Shown here: piece by piece, positions 56,266-60,650 of the stretch
How positions within the stretch are numbered: position 1 is the first letter of the stretch
Layout: each line of letters opens with the position of its first letter
Source: Owenweeksia sp.
Lineage (GTDB): Bacteria > Bacteroidota > Bacteroidia > Flavobacteriales > Schleiferiaceae
Direction of reading: 5' to 3'
NCBI GenBank assembly: GCA_028277105.1
Contig: JANQHO010000169.1
Location: 1-64,000 of the forward strand
Length of the DNA: 64,000 nt
Translations under genes and position numbers: made by a program
The notes under the pieces: generated by a model
Seen by the model: the letters and a program-made list of their open reading frames with translations, nothing else
Databases searched by the model: none
Told to the model about the DNA's origin: nothing

Positions 56266-56405
56266 TTAAAGTTGAAAACCCATACCAACGTAAATATTGC
56301 GGGGAGCAGAAGGAATAATACCACGGCCGGGATAGCCGGTAGCCCTGTGGGTAAAATGGGCATTGTCGGTCAAACTATTAATGCCGGCTCCCAAAAGCAA
56401 ACGTT
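56266..56405 (-). pseudogene. C-terminal remnant of a TonB-dependent receptor
   Basis: On the minus strand the frame reads [20 protein letters not shown], then PGRGIIPSAPRNIYVGMGFQL and a stop. This matches the last strands of siderophore-type TonB-dependent receptors (FTRRATxYPGPGIIPxxxRxFY...). The rest of the receptor, some 2 kb, is absent, and the readable part begins inside the last codons of hemL. A deletion that joined the two is the simplest reading. Confidence 0.7.
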
Positions 56406-57691
56406 TCCATTTCAAGGATAGTTTCTTTGGCTGCAGCGAGGGTTTGATCAATATCAGAAAGAGATAGAGCATTGCTTAAAAACCAACTTTCAAAAGCCGA
56501 TGGAGGTAAGTAGATTCCCCTTTTGAGCATGCCGTGAAAGAAATCTTTGAAGTATTGATTGTTGCCATTGGCGGCCGTATTGAAGTCTACCACAGGGCTT
56601 GCTGTGAAATGCAGGCTGATCATGGAACCTATGCGGTTTATCTGATAGGGGAGGGGCTTGCTTTCTAATAAGTCCTTCAGACCAATTTCTATAGCTTCAC
56701 ATTTTTGATCCAGTTGAAGGTAAACTTCAGGATGTGTTTTGAGGTACTGCAATAGAGTTAGTCCGGCAATCATAGCAATGGGGTTGCCTGAAAGAGTACC
56801 TGCCTGGTAAACCGGTCCGGTAGGAGCTATAAAATCCATGATTTCTTCTTTACCTCCGTAGGCACCAACAGGCATACCGGCTCCGATCACCTTGCCGTAG
56901 GTTACTATATCCGCTTCAATTCCCAGGGTTTGTTGAGCCCCACCAAATCCCAACCGGAATCCAGTCATTACCTCATCAAAAATGAGAATGATGTTTTCCC
57001 TATTACAAAGCTGACGCAAGCCTTCAAGAAATCCCTCTTGAGGTAAAATACACCCCATATTGCCGGGTATAGGCTCAATGATAACGGCTGCTATTTCTCC
57101 CTGATTAGCTTCAACTAATTTTTGAACACCCTGTAGGTCATTGTATTCAGCCAATAAAGTGTCTTGTGCAGTACCTGGAGTAACCCCAGGACTATCAGGA
57201 TATCCCAGGGTAACGGCTCCGCTGCCTGCTTTGATGAGAAAGGAATCACCATGCCCGTGATAGCAGCCGGCAAACTTTACAATCTTGTTTTTTCCGGTAA
57301 AACCCCTGGCCAGGCGGATAGCACTCATGGTAGCTTCAGTGCCGGAATTTACCATGCGGATACGATCTATATTGGGAATGCTTTCGCATATAAGCTGAGC
57401 TAATTGGACTTCCAGTTCAGTAGGAGCGCCAAAAGAAGTTGAGTCTATTACCTTTTGCTGAATAGCCTCTACGACCGGTTCATAGGCATGACCCATGATC
57501 ATTGGACCCCAGGAGGCAATGTAATCTATATAGCGGTTGCCGTCTTCATCGTAGAGGTAAGCCCCTTTGGCTTTCTTGATGAATAAGGGTATTCCTCCCA
57601 CCGATTTAAAAGCTCTTACAGGAGAATTGACCCCTCCGGGGATAAATTGGTTAGCTTTTTCAAAGAGATGCTTACTTTTTTGGGTATTCAT
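56378..57691 (-). CDS. hemL: Glutamate-1-semialdehyde 2,1-aminomutase
   Basis: The 437-residue PLP enzyme makes 5-aminolevulinate in the C5 heme pathway. Signatures are [60 protein letters not shown], and the PLP lysine near 266 in [17 protein letters not shown]. The C-terminus is normal to ETILEMETF, but the last codons (AFGSRH) come from the fused receptor remnant. It is the last heme gene, separated from hemB by the GxxExxY module. Confidence 0.95.
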
Positions 57692-57710
57692 GATTTTTAG
57701 TTTTCCTAAA

Positions 57711-57812
57711 ATACAGAGAAACGGAGATACTAAGAATTATAAAAACTGTTTTGGACAGTAATTAATTTAGTTGATTAGGGTTATTTGCAGTTCTGTTTCT
57801 ATGCATCTTTAC
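57711..57812. repeat. Palindromic unit 1 (left, outer)
   Basis: ATACAGAGAAACGGAGATAC (57711-57730) is mirrored by GTTCTGTTTCTATGCATCTTT at 57790-57810, whose reverse complement contains GATGCATAGAAACAGAAC. The arms are imperfect and about 60 bases apart. This is the most diverged unit on the left. The 334-base gap that holds it has no gene. Confidence 0.5.
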
Positions 57813-57851
57813 GTTTAAATATTTATAAGTGATAGCAGGTGTATTTATTTG

Positions 57852-57945
57852 TTTTAACACAGAGAAACAGAGGCACAGAGGGTTAAAAGATTATCTGAAT
57901 GATTTTTTTATTTTGCATTAGTAGCTCTGTTTTTCTGTGTTCAAT
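57852..57945. repeat. Palindromic unit 2 (left, inner)
   Basis: The left arm AACACAGAGAAACAGAGGCA at 57856-57875 faces AGCTCTGTTTTTCTGTGTTC at 57923-57942, its reverse complement being GAACACAGAAAAACAGAGCT. The two arms could pair over about 18-20 bases. A further weaker copy of the left arm (TTTTAACCCAAAGAAGAAAG, 57997-58016) stands right before the end of the nuclease gene. Confidence 0.6.
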
Positions 57946-58025
57946 TGCTTCAGAGTTAAGAAGCAAAAAAGATTGTCTAGTATAAGTAATCATTTGTTTT
58001 AACCCAAAGAAGAAAGGAGGCTATT

Positions 58026-58433
58026 TTAGAATTGCTCGAAATAACCATTGATGACTCTTCTTACCCCATCGATCAATAAAGGTTCGTGAAAATTTATCAG
58101 GAGGCCAAGTCTTTTATCAGCCAATTTCAAGTAAGAGTAGAGCTGGACTTCGTGAACTTTATGGAGGTTTTCAACGGCTTTTAATTCCAGAACCAGACTG
58201 TTTTCTACTAAAAGATCGATATAGAAATTTTTATAAATGGATTTTCCTTTGTAGCTGATATTGACAGGAACCTCACTGTCTACCTTGAAGCCTTTGTTGA
58301 TTAGCTCCTCTAAAAGGCAAATATGGTAAACACTTTCTACCAGTCCTGGTCCTAATTCTCTGTGGACTTCAATGGCACAACCAATAACCTGATCAGTTAA
58401 GTAGTTCCACTGTATTTCAGTTCTTAGTTCCAT
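58026..58433 (-). CDS. GxxExxY protein, PD-(D/E)XK nuclease-like
   Basis: The 135-residue protein has the naming motif G30-L-V-E33-S-V-Y36 and then a nuclease-like core: D73 in FYIDLLVENSLVLELKAVEN, E83-L-K85, and Q97xxxY101 in HEVQLYSYLKLADKRLG, the QxxxY seen in RecB/Cas4-type nucleases. The order D, ExK, QxxxY fits the PD-(D/E)XK fold, so metal-dependent cutting of DNA is possible, but the family has no proven activity known to me. It sits alone inside the heme operon, with two palindromic repeat units on each side. Confidence 0.85.
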   Translation of the reverse strand: MELRTEIQWNYLTDQVIGCAIEVHRELGPGLVESVYHICLLEELINKGFKVDSEVPVNISYKGKSIYKNFYIDLLVENSLVLELKAVENLHKVHEVQLYSYLKLADKRLGLLINFHEPLLIDGVRRVINGYFEQF

Positions 58434-58506
58434 ATCCTCATTAGTGCAGTTTTCAGTTTAAATTGGGATAAATGTTTTGAATAAAATAGTCATTATCATT
58501 TTCCAT

Positions 58507-58607
58507 TGTAACACAGAGAGATAGAGACATAGAGGTTTTTTTAAAACTATTTTCAGCAATTCTGCTTAAGCTACGCATAATTCTGTTTCTCAGTGTCTCT
58601 GTGTTTG
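58507..58607. repeat. Palindromic unit 3 (right, inner)
   Basis: TGTAACACAGAGAGATAGAG followed by ACATAGAGG (58507-58535) faces ATTCTGTTTCTCAGTGTCTC followed by TGTGTTTGG (58580-58608). The reverse complement of the right arm reads AACACAGAGACACTGAGAAA, close to the left arm over about 26 bases. This is the best-preserved unit. It lies in the 346-base gap between the nuclease gene and hemB, which has no other gene. Confidence 0.65.
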
Positions 58608-58650
58608 GTTTGTTAGAAGCCTGATACTAGTTGGTGTTAATTATTTTATT

Positions 58651-58725
58651 GTAAAACAGAGAGTTATAGAACAGTTTTTGATAAGAAGTATTTATAGCTC
58701 TGTATCACGGTGTCTATGTGTTGGA
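58651..58725. repeat. Palindromic unit 4 (right, outer)
   Basis: GTAAAACAGAGAGTTATAGA followed by ACAG (58651-58674) faces ATAGCTCTGTATCACGGTGT followed by CTATGTGTTGG (58694-58724), whose reverse complement is an ACACATAGACACCGTGATAC-type copy of the same sequence. Arms are imperfect. The end lies 55 bases from the hemB stop. Confidence 0.5.
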
Positions 58726-58779: not shown

Positions 58780-59748
58780 TTATATCAAATATTTGATGAT
58801 ATCCTTTACAAAATAGGTGGCGATCAGATCGGCTCCGGCTCTTTTGATAGCGGTTAAAGATTCTACCATGGCCTGCTCTTCGTTGAGCCAGTCTTTTTGA
58901 GCGGCAGCTTTGATCATGGCGTATTCACCGCTTACGTGATAAGCCGATACCGGAACGGAAGAAACTTCTTTAACAGATTTTATCACATCCAGATAAGCCA
59001 TAGCTGGTTTTACCATTACTATATCAGCTCCTTCTTGTATATCGAGCAGAGCTTCCTTAATCCCTTCCCTGTGATTAGCCGGGTTCATCTGATAAGTTTT
59101 TTTATCACCAAAACCCGGGGCGGAATCCAAAGCATCGCGGAAAGGACCGTAAAAGCAGGAAGCATATTTGGCACTATAGGCCATAATGCCGGTATTGATA
59201 AAGCCAGTGGTTTCCAAAGCTATGCGCATTGCCTCGATGCGTCCGTCCATCATATCGCTGGGAGCTATAAAATCAGCTCCGGCCTGAGCATGGGAAACCG
59301 CCATTTCTGCCAATACTTCTACCGTTTCGTCATTTAGTATTTCTTCATCTTCTACTAAGCCATCATGACCGTAAGACGAATAAGGATCCAAAGCCACGTC
59401 CGTCATTAAACATATACCGGGGACAGCTTCCTTAATTTCCCGGATAGCTCTTTGCATCAAGCCATCGGGATTCAGGGCTTCTTTGCCGGTATTGTCTTTG
59501 AGCATTTCGGAAACTTTGACAAAAAGCAAAGCCGAGCGGCAGCCCATTTTCCATAATTCTTTTACTTCTTTCCTCAAAAGATCGAGGCTAAAGCGATAGT
59601 AGCCCGGCATCGAATCAATTTCTTCTTTGATATTCTTGCCCTCGGTAGCAAATAAAGGAGCAATAAAATCAGTGGGAGAGAGGGAGGTTTCGGCTACCAT
59701 ATCCCGTATAGCCTTGCTGGCCCTGAGCCTGCGGGGTCTTATATTCAT
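58780..59748 (-). CDS. hemB: Porphobilinogen synthase
   Basis: The enzyme joins two 5-aminolevulinates. The start at 59748 (MNIRPRRLRASKAIRD) overlaps the hemF stop as ATGA; an in-frame ATG at 59757 is less likely. Signatures are DVALDPYSSYGHDG, ASCFYGPFRDALDSAPGFGD with the first Schiff-base region, and GADIVMVKPAMAYLDVIK with the active lysine near 250. The metal loop lacks the three-Cys zinc site, so it should be a magnesium-type enzyme. Confidence 0.95.
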   Translation of the reverse strand: MNIRPRRLRASKAIRDMVAETSLSPTDFIAPLFATEGKNIKEEIDSMPGYYRFSLDLLRKEVKELWKMGCRSALLFVKVSEMLKDNTGKEALNPDGLMQRAIREIKEAVPGICLMTDVALDPYSSYGHDGLVEDEEILNDETVEVLAEMAVSHAQAGADFIAPSDMMDGRIEAMRIALETTGFINTGIMAYSAKYASCFYGPFRDALDSAPGFGDKKTYQMNPANHREGIKEALLDIQEGADIVMVKPAMAYLDVIKSVKEVSSVPVSAYHVSGEYAMIKAAAQKDWLNEEQAMVESLTAIKRAGADLIATYFVKDIIKYLI

Positions 59749-60650
59749 GTAATCCAATCTTTAGGTTTTTGTAATACTTTTATCAGCTTTTCCTCTTCGG
59801 TACCGGGCTTGGGTTGGTGGTTATAATCCCAGCGTACGCGAGGAGGCAGACTCATCAAAATACTTTCGGTTCGGCCATTGGTTTTAAGGCCAAAAAGGGT
59901 TCCACGGTCGTGTACCAGGTTGAACTCTACGTAGCGCCCCCTTCTTATTTCTTGCCAGTAGCGGTTTTCTTCGCCCCAGGGTGTATTTACCCTTTTTTCC
60001 ACTATAGGAAGGAAGGAAGGAAGAAAAGCCTTTCCCATATCTATATCAAATCCCATCCAGTCCCGGGCTGATCTGTTCCGGTCAGGTCGCAGATAATCAA
60101 AAAAAGTGCCTCCAATGCCGCGCCCTTCGTTGCGGTGGTGGTTGCGGAAATAGTCGTCACACTGTTTCTTGAATTTTGGATAGAGGTCTTCTCCATGCCT
60201 GTCGGCCGCTGTTTTTTGGGTTTGGTGAAAATGAACGGCATCTTCTTCAAAAAGATAATAAGGAGTGAGGTCAGCTCCACCGCCAAACCAATGATCTATT
60301 CTTTCATCTTTATTGTTGTACATCTCAAAATAGCGGTAGTTGGCGTGAGTAGTGGGGACGAAAGGGTTTTCAGGGTGAATGACCAGGGAGATACCACAGG
60401 CAAAAAAGCTCTCCCCATCGGTTTTCATATTTTTTTTAAGGGCCTCTGGCATCTTGCCGTGTACTAAGGAAGTACTTACGCCTCCTTTTTCAAAAATATT
60501 TCCGTTGCTGATCACCCTGGAGCGACCGCCACCACCTCCGGGTCGTTCCCAATGGTCCTCTACAAAACGTGCTTTGCCGTCAATTTCTTCCAGAGCCTTG
60601 CAAATTTCATCCTGCAGGCTTCTTATGAATTCTGTGAATTCTTCTTTCAT
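59745..60650 (-). CDS. hemF: Oxygen-dependent coproporphyrinogen III oxidase
   Basis: The 301-residue enzyme makes protoporphyrinogen IX with oxygen. Signatures are RPGGGGGRSRVISNGNIFEK, GISLVIHPENPFVPTTHANY, WFGGGADLTPYYLFEEDAVH and GGTFFDYL, with RGRYVEFNLVHDRGTLFGLK at the C-terminus. Its presence points to an aerobic lifestyle. It overlaps hemB by four bases; an 85-base gap separates it from hemE. Confidence 0.95.
   Translation of the reverse strand: MKEEFTEFIRSLQDEICKALEEIDGKARFVEDHWERPGGGGGRSRVISNGNIFEKGGVSTSLVHGKMPEALKKNMKTDGESFFACGISLVIHPENPFVPTTHANYRYFEMYNNKDERIDHWFGGGADLTPYYLFEEDAVHFHQTQKTAADRHGEDLYPKFKKQCDDYFRNHHRNEGRGIGGTFFDYLRPDRNRSARDWMGFDIDMGKAFLPSFLPIVEKRVNTPWGEENRYWQEIRRGRYVEFNLVHDRGTLFGLKTNGRTESILMSLPPRVRWDYNHQPKPGTEEEKLIKVLQKPKDWIT

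Follow-up and report, generated by a model that had tools for sequence, protein, structure and literature searches.

GxxExxY nuclease genes and their inverted word arrays: a probable REPIN/RAYT-like element with a different enzyme

The intergenic region between hemB and hemL in Owenweeksia sp. holds an intact GxxExxY open reading frame surrounded by four plus/minus pairs of NNACAGAG-type words. This locus is probably one copy of a widespread two-part element that resembles REPIN/RAYT systems and has a RecB/Cas4-like PD-(D/E)XK nuclease as its enzyme. The first part would be the small nuclease itself (GxxExxY). The second would be two arrays in inverted orientation, in each of which a 7-nt word, CRCRRAN, recurs about three or four times at intervals of 8-10 nt. 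In the genomes surveyed, GxxExxY genes are paired with such repeats, word identity is coupled to protein clade, gene and arms are present or absent at fixed sites, and word doublets are dispersed alongside the matching protein type. Mechanistically speaking, the protein would recognize the words of its own array one at a time, in DNA form, and would cut at or in the arms, so mobilizing or copying units bracketed by a plus and a minus arm. Units that contain the gene would be autonomous, and units with a short spacer (like the four in the window, by which we mean the whole 64,000-nucleotide stretch of DNA analysed) would be non-autonomous and REPIN-like.

Some observations count against this reading. 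The Owenweeksia genome (G000) shows no dispersal of its repeat, and some other genomes (e.g. G309) carry dispersed doublets without a matching gene. Moreover, no excision product or transposition intermediate was found, and repeated loss or homologous allele exchange, rather than transposition, could account for fixed sites being filled in some genomes and empty in others.

The hemB-hemL locus and its predicted nuclease

All eight arms placed by the initial annotation are present, shifted by a few bases at most (table 1). Each comprises about three words at intervals of 8-9 nt and is not a single 17-mer. Searching the window with the 17-mer AACACAGAGAAACAGAG at up to three mismatches returns seven matches, six of them at the locus, where 0.10 would be expected. 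Genome-wide (3.9 Mb, 174 contigs), AACACAGAGANACAGAG at up to two mismatches has five matches, all at the locus; the repeat is thus local here, with no dispersal, and the gene-repeat system of this genome looks local and partly decayed. The four units had also been described as hairpin-forming. Their plus/minus layout stands, but only the inner two fold better than shuffled DNA when modelled as single-stranded DNA (unit 2, z -4.0; unit 3, z -2.8), and the outer two fold no better than shuffles (unit 1, z -1.0; unit 4, z +0.4). An Rfam scan gave no match near any gathering score.

Table 1. Arms, gene and boundaries of the locus in window coordinates.
Feature	Position	Strand	Sequence or evidence
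Unit 1 plus arm	57706..57738	+	TACAGAG AACGGAG words; direct-repeat family D1 and sequence
Unit 1 minus arm, degenerate	57783..57806	-	Direct-repeat family D3
Unit 2 plus arm	57852..57884	+	ACACAGAG AAACAGAG GCACAGAG; repeat search and sequence
Unit 2 minus arm	57917..57944	-	Inverted pair I3, 90% complementary
Degenerate fifth plus arm TTTTAACCCAAAGAAGAAAGGAGG	57986..58016	+	Adjoins gene 3' end
GxxExxY gene, 135 aa, predicted RecB/Cas4-like PD-(D/E)XK nuclease	58026..58433	-	Profiles, residues, AF2 model, fold match
Unit 3 plus arm	58506..58538	+	ACACAGAG AGATAGAG ACATAGAG; repeat search and sequence
Unit 3 minus arm	58582..58605	-	Inverted pair I2
Unit 4 plus arm	58648..58672	+	Direct-repeat family D2
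Unit 4 minus arm, degenerate	58690..58722	-	Direct-repeat family D3
hemL, insertion-site boundary, left in window coordinates	56378..57691	-	Adjoins hemB, with a short spacer, in relatives with an empty site
hemB, insertion-site boundary, right in window coordinates	58780..59757	-	

The degenerate fifth plus arm lies beside the 3' end of the gene, and 26 nt of it (57986-58011) are 85% identical to the left end of unit 2 (57841-57866; repeat pair D5). Judging from the sequence, the gene may therefore once have sat inside its own plus/minus unit. A second GxxExxY gene in the same genome (L002) has ACCACGAAGGCCCGAAACACAAA upstream and then an inverted counterpart; the plan is alike and the letters are other.

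The gene itself is intact and matches what had been proposed for it, a PD-(D/E)XK-like protein with D73, E83-x-K85 and QxxxY. Its product is matched by TIGR04256 (E 9.7e-41, 138.8 bits; curated cut-off 35) and PF13366 (E 7.2e-40, 136.4 bits; curated cut-off 22). Invariant in 26 sequences of relatives are G28, G30, E33 and Y36 of the GxGxxExxY motif, together with D73, E83, K85, Q97 and Y101. The AlphaFold2 model (pLDDT 93.8) has the layout expected for PD-(D/E)XK enzymes, and its best fold match in the PDB is 4ic1 (SSO0001), which we take to be a Cas4, followed by lambda-type exonucleases. Searches of the PDB with the sequence found no relative, and the match to the cas4 equivalog (E 0.0066, 16.3 bits) falls far under the cut-off of 65. 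A known defence system was rejected as a candidate, since the PADLOC anti-phage defence models gave weak matches only (Cas4 at 0.0017 for the window protein and PDC-M36A at 0.01 for a relative). GxxExxY matches above the cut-off occur in 191 of 392 sampled genomes of the phylum. At one locus (L097), two neighbouring GxxExxY genes share 99% identity, a recent tandem duplication.

Word arrays and the protein-word code

The words are concentrated beside the gene. Across 185 GxxExxY loci with full flanks, the density of CRCRRAN on both strands (a shape picked after seeing the data) is 22.6/kb upstream and 26.7/kb downstream in the 100-bp bins next to the gene, and falls to about 4/kb beyond 600 bp (4.17/kb at 900-1300 bp and 4.65/kb after shuffling; Wilcoxon p=3e-26). 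When the most repeated 7-mer is counted instead, without bias towards any word shape, inner and outer flanks again differ (p=2e-12) and the same words are recovered. Whether the repeats fall at random relative to GxxExxY genes was a question set beforehand, and they do not: within 130 bp there are 20.9 words/kb at GxxExxY genes versus 2.3 and 2.9 at the control genes, TIGR02436 and hemB, respectively.

The arrays have a regular spacing and a fixed polarity. Words on the same strand are separated by 8, 9 or 10 nt in 185, 256 and 167 cases. Plus words prevail over minus words within 50 bp of the start codon (256 vs 57), and minus words prevail over plus words within 50 bp past the stop (326 vs 119); the usual arrangement is therefore a gene with a plus arm before it and a minus arm behind it. 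Within 130 bp, 121 of 210 loci have a strong pair of inverted arms, and none does after shuffling. Most of the relatives examined first have similar arrays, with words particular to each. In Pseudomonadota, Planctomycetota, Chloroflexota and other phyla, the majority of named loci have at least four words in their flanks. In the named genomes, loci with four or more words in the 130 bp beside the gene extend the arrays to 12 or more phyla, each with one such locus or more: Pseudomonadota, Bacteroidota, Planctomycetota, Chloroflexota, Acidobacteriota, Verrucomicrobiota, Ignavibacteriota, Cyanobacteriota, Thermodesulfobacteriota, Chlorobiota, Bacillota, Nitrospinota and Cloacimonadota. Long arrays of words or units stand beside the gene at four loci (L010, L014, L025 and L065; at L010 the gene has units of about 95 bp to either side), which suggests local amplification.

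What is conserved in the arms is the words. With the words taken from one arm only and the mismatches counted on its partner, the plus arm differs from the reverse complement of the minus arm at 8.9% of word positions versus 35% of the bases between words (p=3e-47). C1, C3, A6 and position 7 almost never differ between arms, and R4 differs in a third. Read in the sense strand, the mismatches are 225 of G.U type and 236 of A.C type, that is, without a G.U bias. Stem complementarity was ruled out as the conserved feature by the mismatch between words, and selection for an RNA hairpin by the absent G.U bias. The earlier proposal of a nuclease that processes hairpins formed by its own flanks thus finds no support in the form given. 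Since the words are conserved, the spacers are not and G.U pairs are not preferred, the pattern favours recognition of the word array, as DNA, over recognition of a stem, and speaks against a selected RNA stem.

The same figures bear on a reading in which the arms act as RNA, the plus/minus stem protecting, terminating or controlling the GxxExxY message without any DNA mobility, on the model of 23S rRNA intervening sequences or REP mRNA stabilizers. Such a role would suit arms that directly abut the start and stop codons, the Shine-Dalgarno-like RRAG that some words place just before the start codon (L037, L039) and the two window units that fold well. We regard it as quite unlikely given the mismatch types, the conservation of words next to non-complementary spacer bases and the doublets apparently dispersed away from the gene (see below).

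The words also differ in step with the protein. GPGL/QxxTY proteins go with CRCRRAG words, and QxxNY proteins with CACGAAT, CACGGAT or similar. In particular, the final base is G at 128 of 135 scorable loci with QxxTY/SY proteins (mostly GPGL), and T or A at 38 of 41 loci with QxxNY proteins. On a tree of 226 proteins, with 179 loci labelled, the last base changes 9 times and positions 2, 4 and 5 change 32, 25 and 26 times (raw counts, without a shuffled baseline). In genomes with more than one type, scoring the rule on GPGL gives 47 agreements and 4 exceptions, three of the latter being GPGLLEI proteins picked up by the H-type profile. The middle residue of GxG was tried as the key to specificity and rejected, because these three GPGLLEI proteins have ...AT words; clade fits better. 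Word identity, then, follows protein clade, and the correlation is partly due to shared descent of locus and arms.

Dispersed doublets and changing occupancy

Doublets of the form CACGAAT-N1-3-CACGAAT reach up to 100 per genome, compared with 0-1 for the reversed control. They occur in 18 of the 27 genomes with a CACGAAT-type (H) gene, versus 15 of 94 other GxxExxY-positive genomes (p=9e-7) and 21 of 220 genomes when all those without an H-type gene are counted (p=1e-10); kinship is ignored in both tests, and the list of H-gene carriers and the doublet counts were transcribed by hand. In one genus alone (g21, 14 genomes) the trend has p=0.047. CACAGAG doublets are unlinked to the H-type gene (12/27 vs 41/94, p=1) and are present in 53 of 121 GxxExxY-positive genomes versus 4 of 126 negative ones.

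Individual sites show what is dispersed. In one genome (G293), all 16 inspected sites have the arm GCCACGAATTCACGAAT. At some of them the 170 printed bases include the whole inverted doublet, whose spacer and flanks are unrelated from site to site; in others the second arm is degenerate, is not seen or, in one case, lies beyond the printed stretch. Comparison with a genome 83% identical to it (G257) reveals doublets present in only one of the two, and one doublet sits in the loop of an apparent older unit. Target-site duplications were sought in this pair and at the map-methyltransferase site described below; in these strongly diverged flanks none was consistent. TA seemed possible as such a duplication at one nested unit and failed at another. 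Spread by phage or plasmid was rejected as well, with matches in 0 phage records, 8 of 72,556 plasmids and 3 viral contigs.

Two intergenic sites reveal the gene and its arms coming and going. The order hemF-hemB-hemL is kept in many relatives, and a GxxExxY unit lies between hemB and hemL in five genomes (G000, G026, G022, G014 and G015). A further genome (G017) has an internally deleted remnant with its arms present, and in many other relatives the site is empty (21-102 bp). A hemB-GxxExxY-hemL order conserved in all relatives, which the initial annotation had set against its own idea, is thus not what the genomes contain. The same slot can carry something else: in G025 (L253) it holds a four-helix-bundle reading frame (TIGR02436, E 1.2e-17) amid inverted arrays of other, AAATTCTAAATTCGAAATTC-like words, and in G003 (L254) a TIGR02436-type copy that looks broken, on inspection only, amid other repeated words. 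In G022 (L252), the left GxxExxY arm runs into the 3' end of hemB, inside the frame, and HemB is apparently about ten residues longer.

The second site, between map and a methyltransferase gene, is readable in 29 genomes of genus g21. Nine are empty (2-30 bp), 18 have a gene or gene remnant and two are relics. A CACAGAG/CACAAAG-type gene with matching arms accounts for ten genomes (one reduced to a 129-bp match), and a CACGAAT-type gene (36-40% identical to the former gene) with CACGAAT-type arms for eight. The two relics lack a gene and apparently retain a fragment of the left arm. Mapped onto a tree of the flanking gene, the site states need 12 changes, at least 7 of them between filled and empty, with many forks weak. 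A filled genome is, with good support, the sister of one relic, which has therefore probably lost its gene. In two genomes (L374, L375), a different long palindrome, cctgcaaggttttcaaaaccttgtaggt, lies at this site beside the apparent scrap of a lost GxxExxY arm and represents another, unassigned family of repeats.

That hemB-hemL and map-methyltransferase are found again and again filled or empty is also what a homing-endonuclease-like gene might produce. Its nuclease would cut alleles without the gene at a few fixed intergenic sites, and the gene would spread when the break is repaired by copying, with the arms as by-products or anchors of that repair and not as substrates. PD-(D/E)XK homing enzymes exist (e.g. 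I-Ssp6803I), which lends the idea some support. It is nevertheless very unlikely: genes of one word type occupy many unrelated sites, the arms are tied to protein clade and not to site (one site bears different arms with different proteins), and doublets are dispersed in many copies.

In a further reading the repeats belong to a different enzyme, such as a transposase that has escaped notice, or to recombination, and GxxExxY is a passenger, or a guard over hairpin-prone DNA in the manner of a structure-specific nuclease that limits palindromes. G309, with 44 CACGAAT doublets and no CACGAAT-type gene detected, is an example of arrays without a detected matching gene, either orphan repeats or the trace of a lost gene. 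TIGR02436 genes likewise tend to have repeated flank words and share the hemB-hemL slot in a relative. We hold this reading to be unlikely, as word identity tracks the GxxExxY clade, even within one genome and at one site, which is unexpected of a passenger. A nuclease acting on its own word arrays remains our preferred account.

Relation to known repeat systems

Because the word depends on the branch of the enzyme and gene and repeats come and go together, GxxExxY genes with their arrays look like the equivalent, so far undescribed, of REP/RAYT mobile repeats, with an unrelated enzyme. The comparison with REP/RAYT made from the window alone held up, since dispersed related units occur in genomes whose enzyme is of the matching type. 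As in REPIN/REP-RAYT systems, the gene is flanked by its own repeats, which are also dispersed as inverted doublets with variable spacers (PMC3116915, PMC3733652, PMC8049555). Doublets are likewise commoner in genomes with the gene, as found for CACGAAT-type genes in the phylum and not for G000, and GxxExxY is almost wholly chromosomal. The differences lie in the enzyme, as had been anticipated, and in the repeat. RAYT is a Y1 HUH transposase, IS200/IS605-like, and GxxExxY belongs to a PD-(D/E)XK nuclease family (PF13366/TIGR04256) with the corresponding type of fold. REPs carry a GTAG tag (PMC3733652), which is absent from the ends of the GxxExxY arms, these being arrays of CRCRRAN words; and a REP is one imperfect hairpin, whereas a GxxExxY arm consists of several 7-nt words spaced 8-10 nt apart. 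The resemblance is one of functional analogy and not of membership.

Other systems share single features. CGTC-tagged REPs, short dispersed palindromic repeats without a known enzyme (PMC3733652), are similar in being short, dispersed and palindromic, and differ in sequence. Like MITEs and their parent insertion sequences, GxxExxY elements comprise a gene-bearing copy between inverted ends and short gene-free copies with the same ends, present or absent at the same site in relatives; unlike them, they have no DDE transposase, no target-site duplication was found in the diverged flanks compared and their ends are made of repeated words. Cas4/RecB-like nucleases share the fold and the active-site motifs D, ExK and QxxxY, but GxxExxY proteins have only about 130 aa, score far below the cas4 cut-off and are without a sequence relative in the PDB.

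In openly licensed papers we found no description of GxxExxY function or of the gene-repeat pairing, nor any occurrence of TIGR04256 or of two of the repeat strings; an earlier description of the pairing may exist in subscription journals or preprints. The pairing supplies a concrete substrate hypothesis for the common GxxExxY proteins and a candidate enzyme for several families of bacterial interspersed repeats. In addition, the matched protein-word pairs form a natural series on how a small nuclease chooses its DNA. If the account is true, the spread or maintenance of REP-like repeats would have evolved with an enzyme class unrelated to RAYTs. Our confidence is evenly balanced on the broader proposition, a class of prokaryotic mobile repeats independent of all known transposases. 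In it, each clade of GxxExxY nucleases would read its own 7-nt word in tandem arrays and would spread and preserve inverted units like REPINs in many bacterial phyla; the protein-word code would be an evolving one, readable from genomes.

Partner repeats of this kind may also exist for a second protein family. TIGR02436 genes, of the 23S rRNA intervening-sequence type, resemble GxxExxY loci in being small genes between inverted arms, in one relative in the same hemB-hemL slot; their protein and words are unrelated to those of GxxExxY and the association with repeats is weaker. At 27 TIGR02436 loci, the mean number of repeated 7-mers is 4.7 beside the gene versus 2.9 further out (p=0.002). The Owenweeksia genome holds eight four-helix-bundle genes, and one of them (L319, contig 84) is flanked by arrays of TTAAGTC/TTAAATC-like words.
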